This document shows, in pieces, positions 1-64,000 of a stretch of 64,000 nt of DNA. How positions within the stretch are numbered: the first letter of the stretch is position 1; every line of letters begins with the position of its first letter. A program made the position numbers and the translations under genes. The DNA lies in the NCBI RefSeq assembly GCF_026151205.1, contig NC_087081.1:7559246-7623245 (forward strand), in the 5' to 3' direction. This DNA comes from Bolinopsis microptera (taxonomy: Eukaryota; Ctenophora; Tentaculata; Lobata; Bolinopsidae). Under the pieces are notes generated by a model. That model ran no database searches, was not told where the DNA came from, and saw only the letters and a list, made by a program, of their open reading frames with translations.

Positions 1-1174
1 TAAAAACAATTTCGTACATAAACAAATATATGTACTAAATAACTCAAACAATTCATAGAAATGATTACGGAAGATTACAGATTGAAAGTAATAATGATAA
101 CGAAGATTACATCACACTTCCTATCCGCAAGAAACGGATTCTTTTGCATAACATAATAACATCTAACAATCCGGTGACCGAACAACCAATCCAATCCGGC
201 CGCAACAAACACTTCGCGATCATTAAGAATTAGGTTAGAATCTTCATTCCCAACTTTGACGTCGGATCAGTAATAAACCGTTAGATCTTGCAGCCCAAAC
301 ATAGACTTCGTGAATCCTTAAGAAACGGATTCTTTCCTGCAGGCCCAACTCCCGACCGATCTGAAAAAGTACATGTTGTCATTGACATATTTACGTCATC
401 TGTAATGTAAATCTACTAATCTTTACGTAAAACAGCAAATGATAATCCTCCCCTATCACTTGTTCGTGCTAAATGATTAAATATCTAAATACATTTTGTA
501 TCTTTACTACTGCCCATCGGATAACTGGGAAGTTAGGGAGAAAAGAGAACTAATAATATTTTCACATATAAAGTATATTAATTTTAATTGCGGTTAGTAG
601 AGTAAGTAAAACATTGAACACCAGAAATGATGCGAGAGATACTTCATTTGTAGCTAATAAGGACATAAGGACTCGTGTGATCATATAGCTTAGGTGCATG
701 TGACTTGAAAGACAATTTACAACAAGTATTTTGAAAGCTCCTGCTAATAAAAATCTTTCATAACACTTGTATGTTTAAAATACCCTCCGGATAGTGTGAA
801 GTGTGTTGAGCAGTGCTAGTAGCGCCAACGGCGAATTGTGTCGCTCCTACTGCTTACACTCCTTAATCTCGTTTACCGTGCAACTGCAAGCAAAAAGGCA
901 GAAGATGTTACTATTTCAAAGTTAGCTACTATAGCAAATCAAAGAAAGCTAGTAGGATCAGAGGTTATAAGTAGGCAACATACAGCTTAAAACTGAATAT
1001 AGGTTGCAAGTTTGTGAGATGTTGTCTTCATGAGAGCGAAATTTAAAGTGCCCAGACGACGTCTTGCCAGATAGTGAGTCAGCGAAAGCTACATTTACAC
1101 GAGCTACTAATCCCTGACCTTACAAAATAGTTATGGCACAGAATGATGCAGTTTATGTGTCAATCTGTGAACAA
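1..1174. other. Outer flank of F1, copy a: no gene seen
   Basis: AT-rich sequence between the window start and the F1 TIR. Apart from the 48-bp tandem repeat at 209-352 I find no protein-like frame, RNA gene or recognisable element. It mirrors 17625-18752 and 49292-50455. Confidence 0.6.
209..352 (-). repeat. 48-bp tandem repeat, three units (copy a)
   Basis: Three units of roughly 48 bases, each built on CTTCGTGATCA-TAAGAAACGG followed by a CTTGCAG-CCCAA segment. A fourth, decayed unit (CTATCCGCAAGAAACGGATTC) lies at about 120-150. Noise makes the exact period uncertain by a few bases. No coding or CRISPR-like character. Confidence 0.6.
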
Positions 1175-1540
1175 TACGTAACAAAGGTTTGTCACAGGAA
1201 TGTGATGTCATGTCCCCAGGAACCCACAAAAAAAAAACCTCCATGCTTGAAACTTTTGGTCACAAATTTTTATAGTTCCATTTTCCTCCAGGCCCATACT
1301 CCCGCACCCTAATATGGATATTCGGCTCCCGAAGGTCTTGATATCTCATAGGTGAAAATGACCGAAATGGCCACATTATGGCAGGCGAAAAGATAGTATT
1401 CAGAACGATTGAGCTTTATGTTTCGAAATAAAATGGAATTTTTCGAATTTTTCTCAATTTATTGAAATTTCCGTAAAAAAATATCACCAAATTATTTTAA
1501 TAACGCTTATTTCAGAATCAATTAAAAAACTTACTAACAA
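1175..1540 (-). repeat. F1 terminal inverted repeat, outer (copy a)
   Basis: Contains, in order, a poly-A/CC tract, the TTGAAACTTTTGG segment, CTCCAGG, GGCTCCCGAAGGTCTTGA, the paired GGCCACATTATGGCAGGCGA stretch, and a run of AATTTTTC motifs. Its reverse complement is 4300-4715. Confidence 0.75.
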
Positions 1541-1949
1541 ATAACAGAATACAGTTAGTCCAAAAATGTGTATGCTCCGTAATATCCATGACAATTATAA
1601 TACGACAGTTAATATAATCAAAAATTCGCTGTTCTCAGTTCATCATTCTAAAATGTTTGTGCAGTGCATGACCATGTCCTCGACCACAAGCGTCAAACAA
1701 TTGAAGCCTTATTTCCTACATGACCAGTGCTGAAAGTCAAACAGGCCTTTCCACATCGACAGAGACAGTTACAACATATAGGTATCACAATAGACTCTGT
1801 GCAACTGGTTTACGAAGTCCACCAGAGCCAAGTTCCAGCCGTATCAAGGGATTCATACTAGTCAGCGTAAAGCATGACTCAATAAGTTACTGTAAGTAAG
1901 CTCTAAGGATGTGCACCGTTGCTGAAGCTGATTGTTGGAGTAGCCTAAT

Positions 1950-4110
1950 TCGGATTGAGACACACTTTTCGCTACCATCCTAATGTATGCTAGGAATCTC
2001 AAAGCATAAAGAAGTCTTTTCTGTCACCATAAATGTACAGTGCAAGAAACAGAGGTCCTCCTCAATATATTTCTTTTGATTCACTCTACCGAAAGAAATG
2101 TTAGTCTAACTGAACTTTGCTCATCAAAGTGGAGCTTCTTTTAGCACTTTAACCTTGCTAACTACCAAACATTCCACTGACGCTAGTCACAACCTGAAAT
2201 ACAATTAATAAGAAGAAGTATCTCATTTCTTTATGATCTAGATGACTATGATATTTCTATAGATTGAAATTTACCCTTCCTTCGTTGTTAGATAAATATC
2301 ATTGAGAGGTCACTGTTGAGATGATGTACTAATAGACTTATGAGACTAAATTCGGTATCCACTGCCTTCAAATCAACATCGCCAAGGAATTGACATTATC
2401 CAATGTTATTTCTTTGCAATTAAAGTATCAGCAATCGTTACAAGCTCTGAACACTTCACTACTTTTAACAGTAAAAATGCTTGAGATGATAAGGTCGGAT
2501 CAGTTCTTTTTTGTATTGTTGTTGCCAGAATGTGGTTTGTGAAGTACCAAAGGTGGATTTCTTTAACAGCAATATTAAGCAACAGGCACGCTTTTACTCT
2601 CCACTTGTGCTCGTAGATCTTATAGAAGGCTCAAATCCATCAAAAATCACAGTATAAACTTCCCGATTTTAGGATAACAGCATCAAGTTCTCTCCATTGC
2701 GACTCCACCTAATTTTCCCACCCTTTTAAAATGAGTTTTTCTAACTTATTTGGTGAATTAGCCACCCTGCCATCAATGACTAGTGGAGGATCAGTGAAGC
2801 TGGCAAAAATTTAAGTGTAGATTGTTTTAATAAACCAAAGCAGCATTAATAAGATTTCCTCTCATCTTGTATTGATCAAATAAGCTCATCGCACACATTA
2901 ACTCGTATGTTAGGGCATTCTCTATGAAGTCACTCTAATTCAGCAACCAAGACTAGACGGTAAACACTTCAACGGATTCGACTGCAACGCTTTATTTAAT
3001 TCACTTTAAAAACCTGCTTACTTAGTTGGTCAATTCTTTACTTTACCTTTGACCTATCTTATCGAATGACTGTCAACCCAACTAGCTCACGTTGAAAGGA
3101 CAGCCCCAACGGCCAAACATTCCTCGGTATCACCTCATCGCTCCAGGCTTTGATATAAGACCAGTAGAAAAAGATATTACTTAGACATATCTTCGATTCC
3201 TGTAAAGTCGACAGTAACATTTAAACCAAGTTAAAAATTGTCCAAATACATCACAGTTTTTCTGATAGATGAATTGGTAAGATCTAGTGGATGGCAGCTT
3301 TAGTTGGTACACCTCTCTTCGATGAATTAGCTAAATGAATCTCCAAAAAAACTGATTTATTAAAGCCATCTATTCAGGGTGGCCACATAACTTGAGCGGA
3401 CTCACATTACGCACTCCTCCACTTGTACTCCACCACTAGATTTAGCTGCCCACATAAGACTCTGCCTATGGAAGGTCAGTTCCACACTCCGGCCCCACTC
3501 GTGTCGTTGTCCAAACCGTGTGAAGCCCAGTAACTTTAAAGGACTTTTAAAGCGCCCCATACTTGACGTTAAAAATAGCATCCGGCTCCAATACAGTCTT
3601 TAAGCATTTAGCATACGGTCCATCCCAGCTGCTGGCGAAGTAGGCATCACAAAGCTACTGCGATTAAAGTAGCATAATGTAGTCGTGTGCAACTCTCTTC
3701 TGCTCTTAAGAAGACCTTTACTAAGATATCATGTTGTGGTAATAACCCAAAGGCTGCAGTTCTAACTGTTTGAAAACAGTTTCTATAGAAGCATAGTTAT
3801 TTTCTCTGATAGATTCCCTGGAATAAGTTAGTCTTAAAGTTAAAACACCTATAATTTTCGTTCCCAGCATATGTGATGTAACCTTCCAAGTCTACTATTT
3901 CTCGCCGAAAACTTCTTCCACTAAATGAAACAACCAAAGAGCGGCGATCGATCAAAAGTGGCTCTCAACGCTTTATAGTAAATCCTCCATCCGATATATC
4001 GTGACGTCCCAGGATACACGAATTTGATGACTCCTCTAACCCGAGTTCGCCATTATATAGCCTATGCAGCCAAGAAAACTCGTGAACTGTGAAGCCCTCA
4101 AAACCCATTA
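1950..4110 (-). pseudogene. F1 interior protein with PIN-like nuclease signature, copy a (frame-broken)
   Basis: Minus-strand frames pieced together with the other F1 copies give a protein-like sequence. At about 2620-2680 it contains an FDG-(F/Y)-EP ... K(D/S)-(H/Y)EHK-R signature followed, at about 2400-2560, by a lysine/asparagine-rich stretch and an ADTLIAKK block. This FDGY...TKD..H.RR ... DADxLI order is familiar from uncharacterised metazoan proteins of the PIN/FEN-like nuclease fold; that assignment is from memory of the family, not a search. Several frameshifts and stops remain, so start, end and length are unknown. Expected role if functional: metal-dependent nuclease of a mobile element. 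Confidence 0.4.
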
Positions 4111-4299
4111 CCTCACAATAGTAATCCCAGTTTCCAGTACTATACGGTGGCCTTTAACCATAATGGCAAATCAATGTGATTATCGATCGGCTCACTGTAG
4201 GATAACTTTTAAAGGAGCATTCAACCATAGTGCAATTACCGTCGAATAGCTGTCTGGGGGTTGGTCAATAATCTGTTGTTTGTTTAGTTAACCTTGATA

Positions 4300-4715
4300 T
4301 TTGTTAATTGAAGTTTATTTCCCGAGTAAATTTGAAATAAGCGATAAAAATAATTTGGTTGTAAATTTTTCGAAATTTCATTAAAATTGAGAAAAATTGA
4401 GAAAAATTCCCTTAATTCGAAAAATAAAGCCCCAATTGTTCTGAAATCTATCAGTCGCCTGCCATATTTTGCCATGCGGTCATTTTTGGCACCCCCTATG
4501 GAATCTCAATAGCCTTGGGAAGCCGAATAAACCAATATTAGGGTGGGCGATATGGGTTCCTGGAGAAAAATTTACTATAGAAAATTTTTGCCCAAAAATT
4601 CATCTGGACGGTTTTTTTTTAGGTGGTATTCCTGGGACTTTAATGGACAACACATTCCAGTAGACAACCTTTTGTTACGAATTTGTTCCAGAAAAATCAA
4701 CTCTCAACTCTTGCC
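4300..4715 (+). repeat. F1 terminal inverted repeat, inner (copy a)
   Basis: Inverted partner of 1175-1540. It shows AAATTTCATTAAAATTGAG, the CGCCTGCCATA/GGTCATTTTTGG segment, AGCCGAATAA-CAATATTAGG, TCCTGGAGAAAAA, CGGTTTTTTTTT and CCTGGGAC. Short apparent frames (about 4469-4731) are by-products of this repeat, not genes. Confidence 0.75.
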
Positions 4716-4719
4716 TAAA

Positions 4720-5340
4720 CTAAAAATGTAATTCCAATGAATCGCAAATTGAAAGAATTAGCTGACGTAACAAGACATCTGTCCGACAGCGACGTATTGG
4801 TCCGACTCAAGTTATCAGAAAAAAACATATGTTCCGGAATTGTGATATAAGTTTCAATACGACAACATTCCAATTAGAGACATGATCTGCACTGTTACTA
4901 GCTACTTTGTAACGTAAACATTTCCAATTTGTTATAGGATCTGAGCTGAAACCATCCATAGTTTTATTATCATTTGAGCCGATATATTGGACGAATGTTA
5001 TATATAATACATTTCAGTACATGGTCCTTCGGCCTTGCTTGCGTCGAGGTTAAACTGAAAGATTTGGTGCGTTTTTGGATTGACGATCGACGAAATCCCA
5101 TACCGCTCATCTTATAAGCACTGTAGGCTGTGAATGTTATCGACAGCCTGTTACGCTTGGTTAATGTACGCTAGTCACGATCCTACCTCAAATAGTCAAT
5201 CACGTATCGATGATCGAGATCTCCAATGGATCAATCAGATTAGGACAGTGGGAGCCACTGGGAGACCTTGGGTCAGAAAACTGAACCGGCCCCAAGATGG
5301 GTCAGATACACATCACAAATTAGCGACGTATAATTAGTGA
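4720..5340. other. Segment between F1 and F2, copy a
   Basis: No recognisable gene. It contains the short palindrome-like pair GTCCGACAG...GACTCAAGTTATCAGAAAAAA near 4780-4830 and a stretch at about 5100-5340 that stays open in scattered frames in several copies (see 54227-54616). It ends in the self-complementary TCACTAATTAGTGA motif that precedes F2 (clear in other copies). Confidence 0.45.
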
Positions 5341-6710
5341 TGTGAATTCACAGATCATGGATTGAATATAAATGACACATAAATGGGCTAGTATCTGGGT
5401 AGAGTTCACATGTAAATCTGTAAATCATAAGCTGAACTCTTAAGAAGTAAACATGATCTGACTGCTCTACTCGTAGACCACATAAGGACTGGAAAGCTCT
5501 TGGCTTAAGGGGGGGTTCTCGTATCAAGGGATGTTGAGACGTACTGCCAAAGGATGTAAGGGAGTGACCGGTAAAAAAAAAAAAACAATTGTTCTTAGGT
5601 AAATATACCAGGAATATAGAAAGGTCGCATTCTATCACAGTCATGCCTACCTCATCCAAGTTCCTAAATCTGGTTTCAGAGGATTCAAGGATGTCCACAA
5701 GTGCTTGAATCTGACAGAATATATCTACACCGAAAGAAATCGATGACAGCGTCCTTCTCCTCTGCTTGGCGTTGCAAAGAACAAAACTCTTAAATGTCCC
5801 TCGCCACTGTAACCTTCTCCTCGACAGACACACTCTTTTCCATTGGTGACGTAAACCATATTCGGCCTACCCCACTAGACTCGAACCCTTACAACGCACA
5901 GAGGAAGGCTGCAGAACAACCCTGTCTGCGACTCAGAAACCTGATATCAGAAGTCCTTGCTGATGCTTCAACAGAAGATAAACCAGACGCTCAACCTATT
6001 CGAAGCCTTCCGACTGAATTCGTACTCCTCCAGCTGCCACATCTACAGAAGAGACGAACATTATATCCTCTTTGATGGGGAAAAAAGAAAAAAGACAGAC
6101 AGAGATGAGAGAATATATTTCCCCAAAGTTACACCATACATATCCAAGGATATGTGGGTGTTCTTGAATCATTTACGCCAGTATGTATTCAGGACCCAGA
6201 GCTCCCTCGAGAGAGTTTTTTAAGAGGTTTATCAAAGAGGTTTCATACCCCGAGTGAATCGTTCGCCCAAAGCCCTCTGTTCAAGAATATTTTCGTGCTA
6301 ATTAAGAACAACCGTTGTTATGACAGATTATCATGCTGGTAACGGCTTGCTGTTGAAAGAGCCCTTCCTAAAAAAGAGGATTTCACAGTATCTGTAAACC
6401 TTTCATCTACAAAACGGCAATACCCAACAAAGATTGATTAAGTTTGTTCGCTGTTGCGAAAATACTTAGTAGATTATATTTGAGTAATGTGTTGTAATCT
6501 GAAGTATTATATTCATAATCGTATTAACATTTAATAACATTTTACAACCAACCAATACATGTCTCAATTTAAAACATGTTCACTTTCTTATTAATAGCTT
6601 CTATGTACAGAGATGTCATATGAACTCTAACCCCAGATCTAGCCCATTTTCCAGCTCAATTATATTCAATCCATGATCAACTCACTAATTATACAGACAC
6701 GCTTCAAGCT
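5340..6710 (+). mobile_element. F2: 1.35-kb foldback element, copy a
   Basis: Ends of about 110 bp are inverted relative to each other: 5345-5460 contains CATGGATTGAATATAA, ATGGGCTAG, GGTAGAGTTCA, and 6585-6705 contains the complementary TGAACTCTA, CTAGCCCAT, TTATATTCAATCCATG. The interior carries partly open frames of unknown function. Size and structure fit a small non-autonomous or decayed DNA element. Element family unknown. Confidence 0.5.
5794..6440 (+). pseudogene. F2 interior reading frames, copy a (unknown product)
   Basis: A 93-residue open stretch (5794-6075) rich in Ser/Thr/Leu is followed by a second partly open stretch that continues the reading seen in copy c (55334-55732). 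Conserved local wording among copies, for example FPKLHH and the PKPCS block, suggests a once-coding region. I recognise no domain. An A-rich insertion at about 6078-6092, absent from other copies, breaks the frame here. A shared coding history is inference; the frames could also be chance. Confidence 0.3.
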
Positions 6711-6719
6711 TGCCTGTTA

Positions 6720-7060
6720 CTTACTTTATGACTAATGGTAGACCATAATCACTTCTGACCCCAGCGGGCAGCCGAGGGACAACGTCACGAGCATACCCGT
6801 GAGCTTGTGAAATACGAATGTGATCCAAATTACAATTGAGATCCGAAAGTTCGGAGTACAAGATGTCGCCAATAAGATACTTCTGTCCTAACCCGCTAAT
6901 TCGGCTGTCGGATAGATCAATAGCTACTAAATTCAATGGCAATTAAAAAAAGCATTTAAACCTGTAATACAGTTACTATACCCATATACATTACTATACT
7001 GAAAAAAAATACGATCATATTCGTAATTTTCACAAGCTCACGGTAATGTGGGGGGGGGCT
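6720..7060. repeat. F3: small inverted repeat, copy a
   Basis: The segments CCGTGAGCTTGTGAAATACGAA (about 6798-6820, written here with its noise) and TTCACAAGCTCACGG (about 7028-7042) face each other, with GATC-rich and CGACAG/CTGTCGG motifs between. This gives a roughly 250-bp hairpin-forming unit ending at a G-run next to CTGCTGG. No coding potential. Confidence 0.5.
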
Positions 7061-7440
7061 GCTGGAGACGAAGAAGTTCAAATCGGAACAAAATCCGAGA
7101 TGGTTACGTGCAAAGGTTGAGGAGTAACTTAATAGCTTGTAATTACTGAATAGCTAATACGGAAGTCACAAATAGCTCATACTTTTGACATGCCGTGTTT
7201 CTTAGAATGAGTTTAAATATCCTAATCTGTTTATGGTAAATGGTCCCCTTATCTCTAATGAGATTAACCATTTCAGAAAAGTTGCTCAATACTTGTGCAG
7301 TTGAATAAAGCATTTTCCAATGAATCACGTTCATTTTCCCATTTTACCAGTAAGTACGACCAGGTAAGTTGACAAGTAAATACTCCCAGACTTTAGCTCG
7401 CTAAGTCGAGACATCCAGGATACGATTTTCTCGCATTACA
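7060..7440. other. Segment between F3 and F4, copy a
   Basis: Non-coding. It mirrors 11305-11700, and I see no recognisable element, only moderately AT-rich sequence with a CATTTTCCATTTTACCAGTA stretch shared by the copies. Confidence 0.4.
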
Positions 7441-8150
7441 TAAGCTCAAACCCAGACCACCCCCCACATGTTCGGCAGTAATCTAGATAGAAGCCGACCC
7501 TGTCCCGCGGACACTGTCCCACGGACACTTTCCACGAACAACTGTCCACTAATCACCTGTCTACCAGATCTGTTTATAACTGCATAAAAACATTATTCCC
7601 CAGTAATCAAGCAACAGTGTTGTGAATAGTTTGATTGGTTTTACCAAACATATGAACCTAGCAAATGTTAGTGAATTGAGATGAGTATGTATGGTATCTT
7701 GGATGCAATGTAGTAACGACTAGCATAATCAAACTATTGATTACGATTCCAAATTGGGTCCTTGGATAAATGAGTTTACGAATAATCTTGAGTGTAGCGT
7801 ATATATTCCAGCCATGGTAATCTTCTGTCTAATGGAACGAAATTAATGGACCCCCGGCCTCCTTTAGAGAATGCTCGAGACTCTATTCCAGAAAAACCTC
7901 CTAAGAGCTCTCATGCCAGTCCTGTGTAACGCAATCTATGTCCCTGGTACCCTGCTCCGTAAGGTTGCTTAATCTTTCATAAGCTTGACACCACCGCATG
8001 ATTGAAATTCGCGTTCGATGATGTAACCCTCATGATTCAGGGGATACTGTATATTATGCAGAATAGGATCCTGGTTACAGTTGTTTCGAGTGGACAGTTG
8101 TCCGCAGGACAGGGATCGGGCTATCTAGATACTGCAACAATTTCAAACTT
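7440..8150. mobile_element. F4: 0.7-kb foldback element with GTCCGCGGAC ends, copy a
   Basis: Both ends carry the same terminal sequence in opposite directions. Left (7480-7620): TAGATAG-CCGACC, GTCC-CGGACA-CTGTCC repeats, then CAGAT..GTTATAACTGCATAA and CCCC..AATCAAGCA. Right (8030-8140): the complement of these, ending GGGCTATCTAGATAC. The interior of about 400 bp has no open frame. It looks like a MITE-type (small non-autonomous) element. Confidence 0.55.
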
Positions 8151-8189
8151 TAATTAATTTCAATTTTCGCAAAAGTTTGTCTTTGGCAA

Positions 8190-8900
8190 TTTCCGATTAG
8201 TCGCAGCCTAATAGCGACAGCTGGTTCGCAATTAAAACCTTGATTCTTTCTACACATGGCAACCATAACAAGGATCTGAAGAAATATTCCGGTAAGAAAC
8301 GTCTTCCGCCCCGAGGTAATAAGTACATAAATTTTCGACTCGCGTAGAGCCGTACAAATAGGTTTTGACCTAAGACCTCAACAACCTGAAGTCTTAACTT
8401 TAAAACAATGCGCTATCCACCCACTTAATGTATGATCTGAACCATTTTATGCCCAAGATGTATCCCTTAGCTCCTCCTACAGAAGCTGTAGATATCTTGA
8501 ATAAGTACAATAAATTTTGGGCCCCCACTCGCGAGAGCGTAAAATAGGTTTTGACCTAATACCAAACAAACCGGAAGTCTGTATACTTTAAAACTATGCC
8601 TACACCTCTCAATTGTGATTATACTGACATTTCATACCCAAGTTTATATCCTTTCTCAATCAAAAGTGGAGATATTGGGGGTTAGAATCACGAAAGCGTC
8701 AAAAAGAGGCGTGGTCAATTGAGCAAAACAGCCCCATATTCCAAAAGTCTACCAAAGCCAAAATTTGTTCCTCGGGCGGAAGAACGTGTCTACCGGAATA
8801 TACTCAGACATGTCTAGATTGCCTGCTGTAAGGAAAGAATTAAAGTTACATTGTGACCAGCGTGCTATTTGACTTGCAACTAATTGGAAAATAGCTAGTA
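8190..8900. mobile_element. F5: 0.7-kb foldback element with internal direct repeats, copy a
   Basis: Inverted ends of about 120-130 bp: 8195-8325 ends CGTCTTCCGCCCCGAGGTAA and 8765-8890 begins with TTGTTCCTCGGGCGGAAGA. Between them lie about two direct units of roughly 190 bp (starting near 8325 and 8500), each containing a CTCGCG-GAGCGT-AAATAGGTTTTGACCTAA core. Non-coding. Confidence 0.55.
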
Positions 8901-9366
8901 GTGGCCTGATATGTACCACTTGGTGGCTACTAGCCGATAGCAAGCCGGTTAGTAGCCGTCTATGACCACTTCAAGTGCCGGCTATTAAGCCTGCAAAAGC
9001 CGGTTGGGACTCTCGAGAAAGATATGTCTTCTTTAGCGACCAAGCTAATAGCCGGCTAGTGACCGCCTAGTAGCCACTTTAAAAGTGTCACTAGCCGGCT
9101 AGTAGCCTGTTAAGTAATCGCCATAGACCACTAATTAAGAGCCGAGGTACTGGTTTTCATAGTAAAATATCTTTTAAGTGCCCGTACATGGCGCATATAA
9201 CTATAGAGGCCGAATAGAGGCCGTATAATAGTGGCCCGCATAAGTAAAGGGCCAAACCTACTCGCCCATTTTTCCCCATAAGGGAGCATATCAACTTACT
9301 TGGTTTACATTGGGTTGCTCTCATAGATCCTCTATCCGGGTCACAGAACGGCTTTAGACCACTGCC
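8900..9366. repeat. F6: array of TAGCCGGCTA palindromic motifs beside spacer A, copy a
   Basis: About 250 bp (8900-9150) packed with short variants of GCCGGCTAGTAGCC and CCACTT..AAGTGG, each partly self-complementary. Then 9170-9366 contains AAATATCTTTTAAGTGCCCG, two GAGGCCG motifs, GTAAAGGGCC and the CAGAACGGC edge of spacer A. Extremely rich in local hairpins. No coding sequence. Confidence 0.6.
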
Positions 9367-9434
9367 GTGCGCGAATTTGCTGTCTTTCTGCGCTCCATTC
9401 CATAACGAATTCCCGTTCAGTGCAACAACTTCGC
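9367..9434 (+). other. Spacer A, first copy: turning point between inverted and direct X
   Basis: Short segment between mirrored arms whose bases are not mirrored. The arms end in CAGAACGGCT on the left and AGTCCGTTCTG on the right. The spacer core reads CTGTCTTTCTGCGCTCC on the + strand. Its outer edges (GCGAA and TTCGC) can pair, leaving an unpaired core of about 40-50 nt. It does not resemble the PacBio hairpin adapter I know (AG/CT-rich ends around a GTT-repeat loop). The same spacer recurs in the same direction at 58611-58682. Confidence 0.8.
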
Positions 9435-9925
9435 TGCACGGGTGTCAGTCCGTTCTGATGAACCCGATAGAGTATCTATGAAGCAACCCCAATAACCCAA
9501 GAAAGAAGATATGCTCCCATATGGAAAAATGGCGATTAGGTTTTGGCCCCTATACTATGCGGCCACTATTAATACTGCCAAACGGCCACTATAGTCTATA
9601 AGGCCACTGTAACGGGCACTTAAAAGATATTTGAACATGAAACCAGCTACCAACCGCACTTAATAAGTGGTCCACTTAGCCGATACAAACAGGCTGACTA
9701 GCCGGCTAGTGACCAAAAGTGGCCTACTAGGTCGTTCACTAGCCGCTAATAGCTTGTCTTCTAAAGCAGACCGTACTTCCTCGAGGTCCCAAACCGGCTT
9801 TCTATCAGCTACTAGCCGGCACCTGAAAAGTGGTCACGAGACGGCTACTAACCGCTGCTAATCGGGCCTAGTAGCCACAAAGTCAACACCACGTCCACAC
9901 TACTATTAATTACCAATTAGCTGCA
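9435..9925. repeat. F6 palindromic motif array, copy b
   Basis: Mirror of 8900-9366. Starts at the GTCCGTTCTG edge of spacer A and CACTGTAACGGGCACTTAAA, followed by CTAGCCGGCTAGTGACC-type motifs to about 9880. Confidence 0.6.
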
Positions 9926-9929
9926 GTCA

Positions 9930-10625
9930 ATAGTCACTGACAGTCACAATTTTACTTTAATTCTTTCTTACAGCAGCCAACTAACAAGGTTTCTGAGAAG
10001 TTTCCGGTAGACACTCTTCCGCCCCGAGAACAAAATTTGGCTTTTGTTAGACTGTCTGAATGAGGGGGCAGTTTTGCTCAAATTGACCACGCCCTTTTTG
10101 AACGCTTTCCGGAATCTAACCCACATATCTCCACTTTTGATTGGAGAAAAGGATATCAACTTGGGTATGAAATGAACAGAAACATCACATTGAGTGGGTA
10201 AGAGGCATAGTTATAAAGGTCTACATACTTCATGTTTTTAGATTAAATAGGGTCAAAACCATTTTTACGCTCCGCGAGCCAAAATTGTATGTACTATTAC
10301 AAGATATCTCAGCTTCTTATGGAGCTAAGGGCTCATCTTGGCATAAAAATGTCAGCATCATCACATTAGAAGTGGGTAAGAGACATAGTTTTACAGTCTA
10401 CAGACTTCAGGTTTTTGAGTTCATAGGTCAAAACCTATTTGTACGCTCTCGCGAGTCGAAATTATAAGTGTACTTGATTACCTCGCGGAAGAACGTTACT
10501 ACCGGTTATAATCCTCAGATCCTTGTTTAAGTATGTCCTGCTGAAAGAAGAAGCAAAGTAAATTGCACCTGCTGTACTATTTGCTGCAACAATCGGAAAA
10601 TAAGCAAGACACAACTTTTTGCGAA
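9930..10625. mobile_element. F5 foldback element, copy b
   Basis: Inverted ends at about 9935-10050 (CTCTTCCGCCCCGAG) and 10480-10610 (CTCGCGGAAGAACG). Two direct units of about 190 bp with GGTCAAAACC and CTCGCGAG cores lie between. The apparent frame at 10285-10467 lies inside these repeats and is not a gene. Confidence 0.55.
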
Positions 10626-10669
10626 CATTGAAATTAATTAAGTATAAGCATGTGGCAGTACTAGCAAGC

Positions 10670-11305
10670 CCAACCCTGCCGCGGACAACTGTCCTCGAAC
10701 AACTGAATACCAATCAATTCTCATAATAACAGTATCCCCTGAATCAAGCAGGTTCACAACATCGCACGCGAATTTCACATCACGGTGTTGATCAAGGCTT
10801 AAGAACGAGTTACGCAACCTAACGACATTGAACCAGGGACATAGTACGTTACCACCAGGACATTACATGTAGCTCTTAGGAGGTATTTTTCTGGAATAGG
10901 TAAGTCTCGGCATTCTCTAAGGAGGCCGTTGTCCATTAATATCGTCCCATTAGACAGAAGAGAACCATGTCAGAATATACTACCTACAATCAATATTATG
11001 TCGTAACTCATTATAACCAAGGGACCACAATTGGAATCTAATCAATAGAGTTTGATAATGCTAGTCGTAACTATTGCATCCAAGATACCATACTACCATT
11101 CAAATTCAATAACATTTGCGGTCAATATATTCTGTAACCAATCAACTATTCACAAACCCCTGTTTGCTTGCTTCAGGGGAATACTGTTATAAACAGTTAT
11201 AACATGATTCTGTAGACAGTGTTCTGGACATTGTTTCGTGACAGTTTGTCCGTGACAGTTGTCGCGGACAGGGTCGGGCTATCTAGATAACGCCGAACAT
11301 TGGGG
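10670..11305. mobile_element. F4 foldback element, copy b
   Basis: Outer ends GCCCAACCCTGCCGCGGACA (10670) and GTCGCGGACAGGGTCGGGC (to 11282), with inner partners AGTATCCCCTGAATCAAGC and GCTTCAGGGGAATACTG. The AGGTATTTTTCTGGAATAGG segment in the centre is shared by all copies. No open frame. Confidence 0.55.
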
Positions 11306-12050: not shown

Positions 12051-12054
12051 AAAT

Positions 12055-14312: not shown

Positions 14313-14347
14313 TAAAAAAAAAAAAATAGGGAATAAATAAAAAACAT
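14313..14347. other. A-rich insertion in F1 TIR unique to this copy
   Basis: Interrupts the GCAAAATGACCGCATGGCC / ACATTATGG junction that is continuous at about 1358-1378, 50655-50670 and 63407-63422. Probably the same type of error as 12886-12949. Confidence 0.6.
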
Positions 14348-53400: not shown

Positions 53401-53995
53401 TGTGAAGCCCTCAAACCCTGACACAATAAGCAATCCCAGTTCCAGTACTAATCGGGTGGCCTCTAAACCATAATGGCCAAATCCGAAATAGTATATCATC
53501 GGCTCACTTAGGAGTACTTTAAAGACATTCACAGATAGCATGTACCGTCGAAAAGTCTGTCTGGGGGTTTGTCAATAATCTTTGTTTGTTTAGTTAACCT
53601 TGATATTTGTTAATTGAAGTTTAGTTCCGAGTAAATTTGAAATAAGCTTTTTAAAAAAATTTGTTTATTTTTTTTCGAAATTTCATAAAATTGTAGAAAA
53701 ATAAAGAAAAAAATCATTTATTCGAAAAATAAAGCCCCCAAATTGTTCTGACTATCATTCGCCTGCCAAAATGCGGCCCATTGCGTCATTTTGTGCACCC
53801 CCTATGGAGATCTCAAGACCTTCGGAGCCTAATAACCAATATTAGGGTGGGGCGTATGAGGTTCCTGGATAAAAAATACTAAAAAAATTTTTGCTACGAA
53901 CAGTTTCACTGTAACGGTTTTTTTTTGTGGTACTGACTAATGTCAACAGCTTCCAGATAGACAAAGCCTTAGATACGAATATGTTCCCAGAAAAA
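50455..53995 (-). mobile_element. F1: 3.5-kb TIR element, copy c
   Basis: TIRs at 50455-50820 and 53620-53995. Same orientation as copy a. Frames pieced from copies a-c agree better with each other than with chance. Confidence 0.6.
51240..53430 (-). pseudogene. F1 interior protein with PIN-like signature, copy c
   Basis: Signature region at about 51900-51965 (DLWDIYEPL..KDQSTR-like, blurred). The adjoining 51523-51741 frame, open for 72 residues, reads through the segment equivalent to and beyond the ADTLIAKK block in a shifted frame. An 89-residue open stretch at 53272-53541 lies in the N-terminal half. No intact ORF. Confidence 0.35.
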
Positions 53996-54610
53996 ACAAC
54001 TCTTGCCTAACTAAAAAATGTAATACGAATGAAATCGCAAATATGCAAGAATTAGCGTACGGTAACAAGACATCTGTCCGACAGTCGACTATTGTCGACT
54101 CAAGTTGATCAGAAAAAAAGACATATGTCCCGGAATAGTGATCTAATTACATACGACAACATTTCCAATTAGAGACATATCTAGAACTGTTAATAGCTAC
54201 TTTGTATATACCGTAACATTTCCAATTTGATAGATGATCTGACTGAACACTACATAGTTTATTTTCATTTGATGTCGAATATTGGACGTAAGTGTTATAT
54301 AAAAATCATTCAGGACATGTGCCTTCGACCTTGCTTGCGTCGAGTGGTAAACTTAAAGATTTTGCGTATTGTGATTGCTATTAACTATTCCCCATACCGC
54401 TCGCTTATATGCACTGTAGGCTGTGATGTGATCGGACCAGCCTTTACAGCTAGTTTAGTAGTACGCCTAGCACGATCCTGTCCTCAAATAGGTCACTCAC
54501 GTATCGATGGATCGGATCACAATGCTCAAAACTTGGATAGCGACATGGACCACTGGGAGAGCCTTGGTCAGAAACTGATCCGCCCCCAAGAGTGGTCGAT
54601 TCACATCACT
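53996..54610. other. Segment between F1 and F2, copy c
   Basis: Contains the longest uninterrupted version of the possible decayed coding stretch, 54227-54616 (+, 129 residues, with ICTVGCDVIG and SRIDGSD wording shared with 13490-13702 on the opposite strand of the mirror). No domain recognised. Confidence 0.35.
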
Positions 54611-55965
54611 AATTAGTGACTTAAAAAGTGATGTGAATCACTGATTCCATGGATTGAATATAATTACACATAAAATGGGCTAGAATCTGGGTAGAGTCTC
54701 ACATGTAAATTCTGTAAATCATAGCTTACATTAAGAAGTAAACATGGATCAACTGCTCGACTCGAGACCACATAAGGGACGTAGCTCTGGCATAAAGGGG
54801 GGGTTCTCGTATCAAGATGTGAGACGTACTTGCCAAAGGCAATAGTAATGGGAGTGAGCCTATTCAAGTGTTCTAGATATATATACTGGTAAGATACATG
54901 TCGCATCTATCAGCAGTCATGCTCCCTTTCTCCAATTTCCCTTAAATGTATCAGAGGATCAAGATGTCAACAAGTGCTTGATTCTGACGAGATAATCTAC
55001 ACCAGGAATAAAATCTGATACAGCGTCCTCGGTCTCCGTGCTGGCGTTGCCAGAAGAACAAACTCATAAAGTCCCTGCCACTGTTAACCATCGCTCTCAC
55101 AGGACAGACCTCTTTCCCATTGACGTAAACCAGATTGCTACCCCCACTGAACTCGAAGCTCCTTACACGCCAAGAGGAAGGCTGCAGAACAACCCCACGG
55201 CGACTCAGGAAACCTATATCTCAGAAGTCTGCTGATCATCAAACAGACTAAAAAAGGGGGAGGTGTACAATCATAGAACCTTACCTATCGAAGACTTCTC
55301 CTGAATTCGTCTTCCTCCCAGCTGCACATCTTCATGAAAGTAACAAAAAACAATATATTTAAAAAAATCCTCTTTGATGGAAGACTGACAGAGATGAAGA
55401 AATATTTCCCAAAGTTACACCATAAATATCCGCAAGGTATTGGGTGTTCTGAATCATTTCGCCAGTATATTCAGGATCCAAGCTCCCCCCTCGGAGAAGG
55501 TTTTAAAAGGTTCAAAGATGTTTTCAAAACGATAATCGCACCAAAGCCCTGTTCAGAATATTTTCGTGCTATTAAGGAACAAGCAGGTTTTATACAATTA
55601 TCATCTGGATCGGCTTTGCTGTTGGAAAACTCCTTCCAAAAGAGAAGATTCACAGAAATCCTGTACAACCTTCTTCTACACGGCATACCCAAACAAAGAT
55701 TGAGTAATTGTCGCTGTTGCGAAATCCTTTAGTAATTATAGTTTGATAAATTGTTGTATTCTCGAAGTATATACCATTAATCATTAACATTTTAATAACA
55801 TTTTATAACCAACCAAACATTGCCTCATTTAAATAACATGTACACTTCTTAATTTATTAGCTTCTATGGACAAGTTTGATCATATGAACTCTACCAATCT
55901 AGCCCATTTCCACGCAATTATATTCAATCCTGGATCAAATCCTAATTATACGAGACAAGCTTCAA
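54610..55965 (+). mobile_element. F2 foldback element, copy c
   Basis: Inverted ends at 54615-54750 and 55845-55960. Interior frame at 55334-55732. Confidence 0.5.
55334..55732 (+). pseudogene. F2 interior frame of unknown product, copy c
   Basis: 132 residues, the longest open frame in the window: basic, with FPKLHHKYP, PSSPLGEGFKRF, PKPCSEYFRAIKEQ and a C-terminal CRCCEIL. It begins inside an A-rich stretch partly peculiar to this copy, so the first 15 or so residues are doubtful. In the other three copies the same region is broken. I recognise no family. Conserved wording supports former coding; a chance frame cannot be excluded. Confidence 0.35.
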
Positions 55966-56305
55966 GCTATGCATGTTTACAACTTGATGACGTATAGGTA
56001 GTCACTATCACTTTACCCAAGGTCCTGGCAGCCGTTGGAGCAACTCACAGATACCCCGGTAGCTTGTGAAATACGAGAAGTGATCCGAAATTCCAATTTG
56101 ATCCAAAGTCGACAGATTCGCCAAAATTACTCTGTCCAACCGCTAATTCTCCGGCTGTGGATAATTCATTTAGCTACTAAATTCAGGCATGAAAAAAAAA
56201 GCATTAAACCTGTTAATACATTACAGACCATATACAGTAACAATACTTAAAAAAAAAATACGATCATATTCGTATTTCACAAGCTCACGGATGTTGGGGG
56301 CTGCT
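55966..56305. repeat. F3 small inverted repeat, copy c
   Basis: GTAGCTTGTGAAATACGA near 56060 faces TATTTCACAAGCTCACGGA near 56272, with a shorter G-run following than in copy a. Confidence 0.45.
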
Positions 56306-56690
56306 GGAGAGACGAATGAATTTTGAAAATACGACCCAAATCCTAGATTACGTGAACAGGTTGAGGTTAACTTAAGCTGTAATTAACTGAGGTAATATTA
56401 ATACTGGAATCACAAAATAAGCTCATAATTTTTGACATCCGTATCCTTAGTAGTTTTAAATAATCCCTAATCTGTTGGTACAATGGTCCCCTTACATAAT
56501 AATATTAACCAGTTCAAAAAGTTCTCAATACGTATGGTGCGACATGAATAAATCAATTTTCCAATGAATCACTTCATTTTCCATTTTACCAGTACGACGA
56601 CATTAAGTTGACAAAGTAAATAAACCGACTTTAGCTCGATCATGTCCGAAGACATCCCAGAACGTTTCTCGCATTCAGAAGCTCAAACCA
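56306..56690. other. Segment between F3 and F4, copy c
   Basis: Same as 7060-7440; nothing supported. Confidence 0.35.
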
Positions 56691-57375
56691 TACCACCGCC
56701 CACATGATTTCGCAGTATCTAGATAGCCCGACCCCGTGTCCCGCGGACAACGAGCCACTTGACAACATTCACGAACCAACTGTCCCGAACACCTTCTACC
56801 AGATCATGTTATAACTGCATAACAACATTATCCCCTGATCAAGCAACAGGTGTTTGTATCGTTTGATTGGTATACCAGATCATATTACCGCAAAAGTTAT
56901 GAAATTGATTGGTATGTATGGAATCTTGGATGCAATAGTTACGACTAGCAAAATCAAACTATGATTACTATACAACATGAGTCCCTTGGATATAATGATT
57001 ACAATAATAATGATTGTAGCGTCGTATATTCCTGACATGGTACTCTCAGTCCTAATGGACAGAAATTATGACCCACGGCCTCCTTAGAGAAGCACGAGAC
57101 TTCCTATTCCAGAAAAACCTCCTAAAGAGCTCCATGTCCTGTCCTGGGAGGTGTATACGCATTCTATGTCCTGGTTTCCCCTGCTCGTAAGGTTGCTATA
57201 ATCTGATTCATAAGCCTAGGGACACCAACGCTAGAAGTGAAATTCGCGTGCGATGATATTGAACCCTTAGCTTGATTCCAGGATACTGTTATTTCTGCAG
57301 TTAATATGAACAGTATAACATGTTGTTCGTGGACAGTTGTCCGCGGACAGGTCCGGGGCTACTAGATACTGCCAC
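56690..57375. mobile_element. F4 foldback element, copy c
   Basis: Ends AGATAGCCCGACCCCGTGTC (56724) and GTCCGCGGACAGGTCCGGGG (to about 57358). Confidence 0.55.
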
Positions 57376-57379
57376 ATGT

Positions 57380-58145
57380 ACATGACTTAATTAATTTCAA
57401 TGTTCGAGCAAAGTTAGTGTCTTGCTATTTTCCGATAAGTTTTGGCAGCCAAATAGTACAGCAGGTTCGCAATTCTAACTATGGATTCTTTCAATGACAG
57501 CAGGCAACTTAACAAGGATCTGAGAATATTCCGGTAGAAACGTCTTCCGGCCCCGGGTAAAAGTACATTTAAATTTCGAGACTTCGCGAGAGCGTACAAA
57601 TAGGTTTTTGGACCTAAGAACACAACAACCTGAATGTCTGTAGACTTTAAAAACTATGCTCTTACCCACTTAATGTGATGATCTGACCTATTTTATTGCC
57701 CAAATGAGCCCTTAGCTCCCATCAGAACTGAGATATCTTGTAAAAATTGTTCATAAATTTTGGCTCGCGAGAAGCGTAAAAATAGTTATGAACCTAATAA
57801 TTTACTCAACAACCTAAGTCTGTAGGACTTTAAAACAATGCTCGCTACCACCACTCAAATGATGATTCTGATCATTTTCAAACCCAAGTTGATAGCCTAT
57901 TCATCCAATCAAAAGTGAGATATGTGGGTTAGAAATCACGAAAGCGCTAAAAAGTGCGTGGCTCAATGAAGCAAAACTGCCCCATAATCAAAAGTCTACC
58001 AAAGCCAAATTTGTTCCTCGGGCTAAGACGTGTCTACCGGAATATTCTCCATAACCCCTTGTCCTAGTGCCTGCTGTAAAAAAGAATTAAAGTTTAAATT
58101 GTGACCTCTGTGACTATTTACTGCAACTAATTTGGAAAATACTAT
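57380..58145. mobile_element. F5 foldback element, copy c
   Basis: Inverted ends GTCTTCCGGCCCCGGGTAA (57541) and TTGTTCCTCGGGCTAAGACG (58011), two direct units between. Confidence 0.55.
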
Positions 58146-58610
58146 TCGTGGCCGATTTAGTAGCCACTTTGTGCTACAGCCGATTAGCAGCCGTTATTAG
58201 CCGTCTATGACCACTATCAAGTGCCCGGCTAGTACCTGCGAATAAGCCGGTTTGGGACCCGAGAAAGAGGTCAGCTTTAGAGACAAGCTAATAACTCGTG
58301 CTAGTGACCGCGCCTATACCACTTAATTTTGTCACTACGGCTAGTAGCCTGTTGGTAATCGCCTATTGACCACTTACTAAGTGCCGTTGGTAGCTGTTTT
58401 CATGTAAAATATCTTTTAAGTGCCCGTACAGTGCCATAAGACTATAGAGGGCGTTATAGAGCCGTATTAAATAGTGGCCTGCGATAGTAAAAGAGGGCCA
58501 AAAACCTATCAGCCCCAATTTCCCCATATGTGGACATATCTACTTACTTGGGTTACTTGGGTTGCTTCAAAGATCCATCTTTCCGGACATCAGAACGGCT
58601 GGACCACCCT
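58145..58610. repeat. F6 palindromic motif array, copy c
   Basis: GTAGCCACTT, GCCGATTAGCAGCC and CGGCTAGTAGCC variants, then the GCCC/GAGGGCC stretch up to spacer A. Confidence 0.6.
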
Positions 58611-58682
58611 GCAGGCGAAATTGCTGTCTTTTCTGCGCTCCATTCATAACGAATTTCCCGTTCTGGCAACTAACTCGTCTGC
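58611..58682 (+). other. Spacer A, second copy, same orientation as the first
   Basis: Core reads CTGTCTTTTCTGCGCTCC, differing from 9367-9434 only by small indels and NOT inverted, although the 24.5-kb arms around it are mirrored about spacer B. Its edges are the same inverted pair (CAGAACGGCT on the left, GCCGTTCTG on the right). This orientation is what distinguishes a loop re-read in a concatemer from a simple mirror image. Confidence 0.8.
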
Positions 58683-59140
58683 ATCGGGTGTCAGCCGTTC
58701 TGATGACCCGTATAGAGGATCTATAAGCACCCCAAGTAACCCAAGTAAGTAGTATATGCTCCCATGGGGAACATGCGATTAGTTTGGCCCCTATACAGCG
58801 GCCACAATTAATTCGCCTCCATCACGGCCTCTAAAGTCATATGCCACTGTACGGCACTAAAAGATATTTTTACCTGATACCAACTACCAAACCGGCTCTT
58901 AATAAGTGTCTACTAGCCGATTACTAACAGCACAGCCCTATGACCAAAAAGTGGCTACTAGCCGGTCACTAGCCGGCTATTTAGCTTGTCTCTAAAGCAG
59001 ACCTACTTTCTCGAGGCCAAACCTTTCTTCTACAGCTACTAGCCGGCCTTGAAAAGTGTCACTAGACGCTACTAACCGCTGCTAATCGCTAGAAGCCACA
59101 AAGTTATCTACTAAATCGGCCAACTTACTAGCTATTTTCC
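58683..59140. repeat. F6 palindromic motif array, copy d
   Basis: Starts at the GCCGTTCTG edge of spacer A; AGCCGGTCACTAGCCGGCTA at about 58960-58979. The frame 58474-58752 crosses spacer A and is a chance ORF. Confidence 0.6.
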
Positions 59141-59144
59141 AATT

Positions 59145-59800
59145 AGATTTGCAGTCAAATATCACAGCAAGGTCACAATTTAACTTTAATTCTTTCTTAC
59201 ACAGGCTACAGACAAGGTTCTGAAATATTCGGTAACACGTCCTCGCCCGGAGGAACAAATTTGGCTTTGTAACTTCTGAATATGGGGCAGTTTGCTCAAT
59301 TGACCACGCCCTTTTTGACGCTTTCCGTGATGTCTAACCCCAACATATCTCCACTTTTGATTGGAAAAGAGATATCAACTTGGGATGAAAATGTTCAGAA
59401 ATCATCACATTAGAGTGGAGAGCTATATTGTTATAAAGGCTACAGGACTCATGTGTTGAGTAATTAGGTCAAAACTATTTTTACGCTCTCGCGAGCAAAA
59501 TTTAGTACTTATTACAAATATCTCAGCTTCAGAGGGAGCTAAGGGCTCATGCTTGCGTCAAAAAAGTGTTCAGCAATCATCACATAAGGTGGGGTAAGCA
59601 AGTTTTTAAAGTCTACAGACTTCAGGTTTGAGTTCGTAGGTAAAACCTATTTTGTACGCTCTCGCGAGTCGAAATTTCTTACTTATTACCTCGGGCGGAT
59701 GAAGTTTTACAGGAATATTCTCAATCCTTGTTAAGTTTGCCTCTTAAGAAGTGAATACAAAGTTAAATTGCGACCCTGTACTATTTGCTGTCAACTAATC
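59145..59800. mobile_element. F5 foldback element, copy d
   Basis: Inverted ends around 59165-59255 (CGTCCTCGCCCGGAGGAAC) and 59685-59790 (TTACCTCGGGCGGATGAAG), with two CTCGCGAG-containing direct units. Confidence 0.55.
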
Positions 59801-59859
59801 GAAAATATCAAGACACAACTTTTGCGAACATTGAAATTAATTAAGTAAGAGTAACATGT

Positions 59860-60490
59860 GCATAACTAGATACCCGACCCCTTCCGCGACAACTGTCCAC
59901 AACAACTGTATACAGATCATATTACTGCTTAATAATCAGTATCCCCGAATCAAGCAGGGTCACATCATCGCACGCGAATTTCAATCAGCGGTGGTGTCAA
60001 GGCTTATGAACACGATAACAACCAACAGCAGGAACCAGGACATAGATGCTTACACCCAGGACAGGACATGTGAGCTCTTAGGAGGTTTTCTGGAATAGGA
60101 ATTCTCGATCCGTCCTCTAAGGAGGCCGTGGTCCATTAATTTCGTCATTAGACAGAAGAGTACCATTCAGGCGAATTTAACATACGCTAACATCATATAT
60201 ACGTAACACGTAAATCCAAGGGACCACATTTGAATCAGTAATCAATAGTTGATTATGCTATCGTAACTAATTGCATCCAAGATACCATACTACACATTTC
60301 ATAACATTTGCGGTTCAAATGACTGGTAACCTATCAACTATTCACAAACCCCTGTGCTTGATTCAGGGATACTGTTATTATGCAGTATAACATGATTGGT
60401 AGCTGGTGTTCGTGGACAGTTGTTCGTGGACATTGTCTTGGACAGTTGTCCGCGGACAGGGTCGGGCTATCTAATACGTGCCGAACTGTT
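59860..60490. mobile_element. F4 foldback element, copy d
   Basis: Ends CCCGACCCCTTCCGCGACAA (59872) and GTCCGCGGACAGGGTCGGGC (60447-60466). The right end shows three GACAGTTGT/GACATTGT direct sub-repeats. Confidence 0.6.
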
Positions 60491-60880
60491 TGGGGAGGTC
60501 TGTATGGAGCTCTGAATGCGAGAAACGTTCCTGGATGACCTCGACTTATCGAGCTCAATCGGAGATAGTTACTTCAACTTACATGTCGTACATTACTGGA
60601 AAAACTGAAAAGAAAGTTAGATTCATTGAAAATTGATTCTACAACTCGCACCGACGTATTGAGCAACTATTGAAATGGTTAATCTCATTATGATAAGGGA
60701 CCATTGTACCAAACCAGATTAGGATTATGTAAGTTTTATAATTTACAACTAAGGAAACGCATTCAAAAAGTAGAGCTATTGTGATTCCAGTATTACTATT
60801 ACCAGTAATTACAGCTATATTAACCTCAACCTTTTGCACGTTAACATCTCGGATTTTGTACCGTTTTTAACTTCTCTCTC
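60491..60880. other. Segment between F4 and F3, copy d
   Basis: Mirror of 7060-7440. No supported gene; the C-run of copy b is absent. Confidence 0.35.
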
Positions 60881-61215
60881 CAGCAGCCCCCCCCCACATT
60901 ACCCGAGAGCTTGTGAAATACAATATTGATCCGTAATTTTGTCAGTATAGTAAACTGTAGAGTGGAATAGTAACTGTTACAGATAATGCTATTTTTCATG
61001 CCATGAATTTAAGAAGCAAAGGATCTATCCGACAGCCGAATAAAGCGTTTCGGACAATAATTTTTGAGCGACAGCTGTTCCGACTTTCGATCACAATTGG
61101 AATTTCGGCTCACATTCGTATTTCACAAGCTCACGGGAAATCTCGTGACTCCGATTGCCCCACGGCTGCAGACCTTTGGGTCAGAAGTGTAGACTACCAT
61201 ATACGTCATCAAATA
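60880..61215. repeat. F3 small inverted repeat, copy d
   Basis: CCCGAGAGCTTGTGAAATAC (60901) faces GTATTTCACAAGCTCACGGG (61118). Confidence 0.5.
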
Positions 61216-61224
61216 AAAACATGC

Positions 61225-62565
61225 AAGCTTTGAAGCTTGTCTCTGTAAATTAGTGAATTGATCCAGGATTGAATATAATTGAGCTGGAAAGGGCTAGATC
61301 TTGGGTAGTAGTATCTATATGACAACTCTGAACATAGAAGCAATAAAATAAGAAGTAACTGCAGTTAAAAATTGAAGACAAATGTATTATGTTGGTTATA
61401 AAATGTTATTAAAATGTAAATCGAGTTAATGATATAATACTTTCAGAATACAACAAATTACACAATAAAATTACAAAAGTATTTCGCAACAGCGAACAAT
61501 TCCTCATCTTTGTTGGAGTTATGCCGTGTAGAAGAAGTTGTACAAAATACCTGCTGTGAAATCCACTTCTTTTTGGAAGGAGTCTTTTCCAAACAGCAAG
61601 CCGACCATAAGATAAATCTGAACAACCTGTTGTTCCTAATCGCACGAATATTCTTGAACAGAGGGCATTGGGGCGTTCACTCGGGTTTTGAAACCTCTTG
61701 AAACCTCTTTAAAACCTCTCCAGGGAGCTCTGGATCTCTGAATAATACTGGCGAAAATAGATTCCAGAACACCCACATGATCCTCTGGAATGCGTAATGT
61801 GTGTAACTTTGGGGAAATATCTTCTCACATCTCTGTCAGTCTTCCAGTCAAAGAGGATTAAAGTTGATCGTCTCTCTTGTAGATGTGCAGCTTGAGCAGA
61901 ACTAATTCAAATAAGTCTTCGTCCTAGGTACTCTGGTTTACTTCTGTTAAGCATCAACCAAGGACTTCTGATATCATTTCTGAGTCGCCGACAGTGGTTG
62001 TTCTGGCAGCACACTCTTGGCGTTGTAAGTAGTTACGAGTCTCAGTGGGGTAGCCGAATCTGGTTTACGTCCAAATGGAAAGAGTGTTTGATCTGTGAGA
62101 GCGAGGTAACGAGTGGCAGGACCTTTAAGAGTATTGTTCCTTCGGCAACGCCAAGCAGAGTGAAGAGACCTTGTCATCAATTTACTCCTGGTGTAGGATT
62201 ATCTGTCAAATCAAGCACTGAGTTGACATCCTTGATCCATCGACACCATTTTGGAACATGGAGAAGTAGGCATACTGTTGAAGAATGCGATCCTTCAATC
62301 TTCCCGATATATACTCTAAGAAACACTTGATCGCTCACTCCCCCTTACATGCCTTTGGCAAGTAACGTCTCACATCCTTGATACGAAAGAACCCCCCCTT
62401 AGCAAAGCTCCGTCCCTTATGTGGTCTACGAGTTCCGAGCATCAGCTCATGTTTACTTCTTAAAGTACAGCTATGATTTACAGAATTTACAGTGAACTCA
62501 ACCCCATATCTAGCCCATTTGTGTTGACAATTATATACAATCCATGAAATCATGGAATCACATCC
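61225..62565 (-). mobile_element. F2 foldback element, copy d
   Basis: Inverted ends 61250-61390 and 62440-62560; no A-rich insertion. Interior frames (61510-61701, 61974-62330) are open on both strands, so the coding strand cannot be decided from this copy alone. Confidence 0.5.
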
Positions 62566-63180
62566 ACTAATTATACGTCACTAAGAGTTTGTTATCGACC
62601 CCTCTTGGCCGGATCAGTTTTTTCTGACCCAAGGTCTCCAGTGGCTCCCACTGTCCTAATCTCTGATTTGGAATCCATTGAATCCGATCCATCTATACGT
62701 GATTGACTATTTGAGACAGATCGTGCTAGCCGTACACTAACAGCTGTAAACAGTAGCTTCGATCACATCACAGCCTACAGTGCATATAAGAAGCGTATGA
62801 ACTCAGTTTATCTCAATCCAAAAGCGCAACCAATCTCAATTTACCCTCGACCAAGCAAGTCACGAAGGACCATGTCCTGAACTGATTTATATATAACATT
62901 CGTCCAATAGATCGACATCCAAAGTGAAAATAAACTATGGTCAGAGTTCAGCGTAGATCATATATCAAATTGGAAATGTTACGTATACAAAGTATGCTAG
63001 TAAAAGTTCAGATCAGTCTCTAATTGAATGTGATCGTAATTGAAATTATATCACAATTCCGGACATATGTCCTTTTTTTCTGTAACTTGAGTCTGACAAT
63101 AGTCGCTGTCGGACAGATGTCTTGTTACCGTAGCTAATTCTTTCCAAATTTGCGATTTCATAGGAAAACAATTTTAAGTT
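62566..63180. other. Segment between F2 and F1, copy d
   Basis: Mirror of 4720-5340: GGACATATGTCC palindrome at 63060-63071 followed by the GTCTGACAATAGTCGCTGTC stretch. No supported gene. Confidence 0.4.
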
Positions 63181-64000
63181 ATGGCAAGAGATTGATTTTT
63201 CGTGTGAGCAAATTCGTAACCAAAGGATTGTCTTACAGGAATTGATGTCCATAGTCCCAGGAACCACCAAAAAAAACCGTCCAGCTGAAACTCTAGTGCA
63301 AAAATTTTTATAGTACTTTTCTCCAGGACCCCATACTGCCCCACCCCTAATATTGGTTATTCGGCTCCCTAAGGTCATGAGATCACCATAGGGGGTGCAA
63401 AATGACCGCAATGGCCACATTATGGCAGGCGAATGAAAGTTTCAGAACAATTGGGGGCTTTATTTCGAATAAATTGAATTTTTCCAATTTTTTCTTCAAT
63501 TTTATGAAATTTCGAAAAAAAGACACCGAATTAATTTTTAACGCATATTTCAAATAATACTCGGGAAAATAACTTCAATATAACAAATTAATAATGTAAA
63601 CTAACAAACAACATATTATTTGACCACCCCAGACAGCTATACGACGTACATGCTACCTGTTGAATGTCTTTAAAGTTATCCTACAGTGACCGATTATAAA
63701 CACATTCATTTGCATATGGATTAAGCCACCCGAATAGTACTGGAAAATTAGGGATGCCTATTGTTGTCAGGTTAGGGCTTCCCACAGTCTCACGAGTTTT
63801 TCATGCTGCAAAGGCTATATAATGGCAGACTCGGTTTTAGAGGAGCTCATCAAACTCGTGTATCCTGGAGACGTCACGCATCTATATCGATGGAGGATCT
63901 ACTATACAGCGTTTGAAGCCACTTTCTTATCGACGCCGCTCTTTGTTAGTTCATTAAAGAGGAAGAAGTTACGACGATGAACAAGTAGACTATGAGGTTA
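63180..64000 (+). mobile_element. F1 left end, copy d (cut by window end)
   Basis: TIR at about 63180-63590, then interior. 63828-63918 reads in one frame as DSVLEELIKLVYPGDVTHLY and on through YRWRIYYTAF, the best-preserved N-terminal wording of the F1 protein. The rest lies outside the window. The - strand frame 63046-63420 is a translation of the TIR, not a gene. Confidence 0.55.

Follow-up and report, generated by a model that had tools for sequence, protein, structure and literature searches.

Hairpin-ended linear replicons and their concatemers have a dumbbell geometry with copies in alternating orientation, an arrangement also seen in the stretch of the Bolinopsis microptera genome analysed here (the window; 64,000 nucleotides, C10:7559246-7623245). 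Such series can also arise during sequencing: according to excerpts of the Pacasus paper (PMC6218980), palindromic PacBio reads come from missed or missing adapters, and amplification yields them as well. A double-looped PacBio molecule without adapters was not described in the titles and opening abstract lines of the papers listed from one open-access library. Excerpts of Schultz et al. 2023 (PMC10232365) report an assembly of Bolinopsis microptera with 13 chromosome-scale scaffolds comprising 97.23% of the bases, built with PacBio CLR and Sequel II, wtdbg2, HiRise, gap closing by TGS-GapCloser, and pilon polishing; in the assembly used here (264,652,675 bases in 232 contigs), C1–C13 total 258,070,895 bases, or 97.51%. 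As outlined in part of its description (PMC7476103), TGS-GapCloser fills gaps with long-read fragments that are chosen through their aligned flanks and are normally error-corrected. The DENTIST paper (PMC8848313), again in excerpt, gives mean gap-fill identities with simulated reads of three species from approximately 87.7% (LR_gapcloser) to 97.26% (TGS-GapCloser), FinisherSC apart.

We interpret the window as a slice of one uncorrected long read of at least 145 kb, derived from a doubly looped fragment of C5 and pasted in unpolished, and put the probability of this reading, an artefact without biology, at roughly 96%. The pattern is true in the sequence file and false in the genome.

Comparison of the window with itself gives the order inverted X, X, inverted X, X, where X is a unit of about 24.5 kb; this order, which the earlier note had described, is present in the letters, with turns near 9428 (9.43 kb), 34022 (34.02 kb) and 58655 (58.65 kb). 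The longest inverted match (14345-33784 against 53773-34023) spans approximately 20,759 columns at 80.3% identity, the arms of X being about 80% alike. Further inverted matches join 5871-12880 to itself and 3879-12691 to 64000-55367, and direct matches join 6092-12880 to 55381-62049 and 2-5975 to 49293-55247; self-matches of such length are no chance outcome. The window opens with the last part of an inverted pass across X (1-9373, minus strand, inner limit approximate), which is of raw-read quality and descends from about 4162045 to 4152818 on C5, followed by the first visit to loop A (9374-9428, minus strand) and a complete forward pass (9429-33779, plus strand; C5 4152818 to about 4177178). 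Loop B (33780-34022, plus strand) leads into a complete inverted pass (34023-58600, minus strand), and a second visit to loop A (58601-58655, minus strand, limits approximate), in the same direction as the first, precedes the start of the next forward pass (58656-64000, plus strand); the noisy sequence runs on past the window along C10. Both complete passes carry a 30-base minisatellite of approximately 17 copies (window 21822-22315 and 45707-46229), and the C5 frames repeated at L004 5047-5656 resemble this array.

A clean copy of X is found in the same assembly at C5:4152765-4177426. Sequence searches with the turns match the A end of the window to C5:4152812-4153884 and the B end to C5:4176393-4177426, each at 88%, and C5 is the only clean place among the matches listed that holds both ends of X; some segments of X, being dispersed repeats, also match many other places in the assembly. 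Alignment of the two complete passes covers the whole C5 stretch, with 89.0% identity for the forward pass (9433-33779) and 87.9% for the inverted pass (34031-58655), so that the clean source is nearer to each noisy copy than the approximately 80%-identical copies are to each other. Beyond X, C5 continues straight on both sides. A 447-aa frame with a reverse-transcriptase match (L002 1516-2859) runs unbroken across the position of turn A on C5, and the small contig C20 is collinear with C5 over turn B at 96.9% identity. Seven of the twelve frames of at least 120 aa on the C5 stretch were scanned, and those within X comprise two reverse transcriptases, a GDSL protein, a FLYWCH protein and one unnamed frame. 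The C20 segment (L003:4925-7123) matches C5:4176817-4178999 and is perhaps a leftover alternative haplotype. A repeat family inside X (L002:7890-9440; C5:4157889-4159439) has at least 27 further near-full-length copies at 95–99% identity among 40 candidates scored, and contains a 212-aa frame for which Pfam gives no match.

The turns were placed by joint fits over three visits each. Turn A joins C5 4152765-4152768 to 4152815-4152818 through a microhomology of 3 nt (CAA), leaving a loop of about 50 nt (4152765-4152817) that is read once, and turn B joins approximately 4177424-4177426 to 4177178-4177181 inside an A-run, leaving a loop of about 246 nt (approximately 4177180-4177426), likewise read once. 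Taken visit by visit, the first two fits at each turn agree within 2 bases with the joint ranges; at the third visit the range for A widens (4152758-4152768 to 4152815-4152822), and B fits a few bases away, joining 4177422 to 4177181. Two 5-nt candidate microhomologies, GCAAC and AAAAG, were dropped, as the three-visit fits give CAA at A and an indistinct few A residues at B.

The earlier note had also stated that both copies of spacer A run in the same direction, as in a trip around a dumbbell with loops A and B at its ends, and both statements hold: spacer A is read the same way on all three visits (two in the window, one outside), and so is spacer B (one in the window, two outside). Constant loop direction over three visits to each loop is expected of a closed dumbbell, and speaks against the strongest competitor, in which a polymerase repeatedly folded back on its own product during whole-genome amplification and the resulting rolling-hairpin chimera was then sequenced. 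Amplification is a documented source of palindromic PacBio reads (excerpts of PMC6218980) and the short microhomology at the junctions would suit it; by reasoning, however, repeated snap-back would invert the copied loop and should not give one-way loops, and excerpts of Schultz et al. 2023 (PMC10232365) make no mention of whole-genome amplification. We consider this explanation unlikely.

Eight places on six contigs carry this same noisy sequence. It occurs on C5 at about 5.26-5.31 Mb and at about 9.24-9.29 Mb (minus strand), on C8 at about 15.97 Mb, on C10 at the window's own place (7557363-7677999 and on) and at about 14.34 Mb (minus strand, identified from equal search scores only and not from a comparison of letters), on C11 up to 15,054,741, on C12 at about 1.348-1.443 Mb, and on C13 from 15,314,294 to at least 15,422,999. 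In overlap comparisons of the C12, C13, C11, C8 and C5 copies with the window or with each other, reporting matches above 98%, identity to the window is 100.000% over 10,000 bases of C12, 2,207 of C13 and 942 of C11, and identity between copies is 100.000% for C10 and C12 (9,960 bases), C12 and C8 (2,433), C10 and C8 (2,393), C13 and C11 (671), and C13 and C5 (583); in a separate comparison, C10 and the C5 copy at 9.28 Mb are identical at 1,301 of 1,301 bases. Chained in window coordinates, the overlaps reach from about -1883 (C10:7557363) to at least 143,444 (C13:15422999), a span of 145 kb or more that includes six turns in the order A, B, A, B, A, B. As the noisy letters are identical in the compared overlaps, we infer repeated use of a single uncorrected read, at least 145 kb long. 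Provided that the copies are unbroken between mapped points, the noisy total over the eight places is about 0.47 Mb. On C5, two copies of the repeat family of L002:7890-9440 with equal scores (9205039-9206690 and 9352973-9354624), 148 kb apart, flank the pasted read at 9.24-9.29 Mb, perhaps reflecting a duplicated haplotype around a gap.

The same identity bears on whether the dumbbell existed in the animal, since one identical noisy sequence in the compared copies attests to only one molecule. A natural extrachromosomal dumbbell derived from C5, either a 24.6-kb covalently closed linear molecule or a 49-kb circle that contains the unit twice in opposite orientations, could have given one raw read that was then pasted, with the noise technical and the molecule real; this accounts for a sequence that goes round a closed molecule and always meets each loop in one orientation, and for six examined turns without adapter. 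Against it, the closed ends lie inside ordinary chromosomal sequence with no apparent specific terminal sequence, as the reverse-transcriptase frame over turn A and the collinear C20 over turn B illustrate, and the junction microhomology is short. We regard such an element as quite improbable, and think no better of its close variant, in which a 24.6-kb chromosome fragment with both ends closed through microhomology in the cell was caught once by a long read.

According to the earlier note, adapter sequence at the turns would mark a library artefact, and this sign is absent. The SMRTbell adapter scores 11–16 at the six turns and is outscored at every one of them by the best of 50 shuffles (15–20), whereas 99% of 500 simulated noisy adapters score at least 28. 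Over the whole window its best score is 21, at 36.7 kb and away from any turn, compared with 16–20 for five shuffles. No leftover bases at the turns could hold an adapter, and genomic sequence alone explains them. Absence of the SMRTbell adapter at the six turns thus sets the window apart from an ordinary missed-adapter PacBio read with overlooked SMRTbell adapters at both ends, which we judge very improbable even with a like geometry and a known role in producing palindromic PacBio reads (excerpts of PMC6218980).

The differences between the passes are those of noise and not of evolution. Per reference base, the forward pass has 3.3% mismatches, 4.1% insertions and 4.1% deletions relative to C5, and the inverted pass 3.4%, 5.1% and 4.2%; 1-base indels prevail, and errors amount to 10.0%–14.4% in every 2-kb bin. 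The usual PacBio CLR error mix, with insertions at least as frequent as deletions and both exceeding mismatches, fits these figures, and PacBio CLR is the most likely platform; nanopore may be the alternative. Transitions to transversions number 77:718 and 79:752 in the two passes, with 90% of mismatches being transversions. The errors of the two passes are nearly independent of each other: mismatches coincide at 13 sites where chance predicts 27, and 2 of these have the same base (of about 800 mismatches per pass), insertions share 34 sites compared with 30 expected, and deletions coincide at 59 sites compared with 42 expected, somewhat above chance. In the longest inverted match gap openings (2,003) outnumber mismatches (1,766), which is unlike sequence evolution and as expected when two noisy reads are compared; the arms lack the evolutionary-type differences of a chromosomal palindrome or inverted duplication. 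The single control is the natural pair C20 and C5, approximately 2.2 kb at about 97% identity, which is either a second haplotype or a repeat. Less diverged than the passes, it shows 11 gap openings and 39 mismatches, of which 26 are transitions and 13 are transversions. Two frames that are open on C5, a 1171-aa endonuclease-reverse transcriptase and a 460-aa GDSL protein, are disrupted in both passes, where the longest open stretches are 86–104 aa. Errors of 10–15% that are rich in indels and independent, a clean source nearer than the other pass, and the same noisy letters reused elsewhere together form the signature of a raw read. It is next to impossible that the chromosome really contains an array of 24.5-kb duplications, inverted in alternation and diverged by about 20%. 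Although the window lies inside a chromosome-scale contig with no N runs in the stretches read, the independent, non-evolutionary differences between passes are decisive contrary evidence, joined by the identical noisy sequence at other sites and the ordinary spectrum of the natural pair.

On the preferred reading of a pasted raw read, the template would have been an ordinary chromosomal fragment of approximately 24.4–24.6 kb (C5:4152765-4177426). Each of its ends would have folded back at a few matching bases, and filling-in and sealing would have left a dumbbell whose short single-stranded loops come from the fragment itself. We place folding and sealing, by inference, in library preparation. 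A strand-displacing polymerase would then have circled the dumbbell, making nearly three circuits in the recovered part, such that X and its reverse complement alternate while the loops are always read one way. The software would have left the read unsplit because its turns carry no adapter, and assembly or gap-closing software would then have inserted pieces of it at several locations without polishing. Among the three parallels offered by the earlier note, the best match is the rolling read of a hairpin-capped library molecule; the hairpin-ended replicon and the inverted-duplication amplicon, both in vivo, are contradicted or left without support by the kind of errors, by a C5 locus that is clean and collinear, and by the identical noisy sequence elsewhere.

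Some points sit uneasily with the pasted read, among them the slight excess of coinciding deletions (59 sites compared with 42). The absence of adapter at six turns leaves the priming of sequencing on such a molecule without explanation. Placement by a gap closer is likely and is the weakest part of the explanation, because none of the four junctions tested (from eight places, with up to 16 junctions) has a flank that aligns to the read's continuation and because the inserted letters are uncorrected, despite the flank alignment and error correction described for TGS-GapCloser and the pilon polishing. The C10 flank carries just a diverged repeat that is also found inside X.

The window is of use as a warning only: a chromosome-scale animal assembly holds one noisy read at eight places, and scans of long-read assemblies for palindromes, giant inverted repeats or segmental duplications can meet such blocks. 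Their telltale signature is an excess of gap openings over mismatches, a majority of transversions, and identical noise at other sites. Further raw reads may sit at other places of the assembly.

Set beside known systems, the window differs from hairpin-ended linear replicons, as its unit is chromosomal DNA that carries retrotransposon frames, its ends lie in ordinary sequence, and no replication or resolvase gene is present among the 7 of 12 frames of at least 120 aa that were scanned. It resembles inaccurate long-read gap filling (excerpts of PMC7476103 and PMC8848313) in that long-read letters are put into gaps and identity to the true sequence is lowered, but here one noisy sequence recurs at eight places, with flanks aligning to its continuation at 0 of 4 tested. 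Inverted-repeat chimeric reads from ligation-based nanopore libraries, as described in excerpts of PMC13141652, similarly hold inverted copies in one read and are made in library preparation; those consist of parts aligning to both strands, whereas here a molecule appears to have been circled repeatedly. With the palindromic PacBio reads treated by Pacasus (excerpts of PMC6218980) the window shares a fragment and its reverse complement alternating in one read with raw-read errors, and it departs from them in that, over six turns with no adapter seen, the fragment is closed at either end by sequence of its own.
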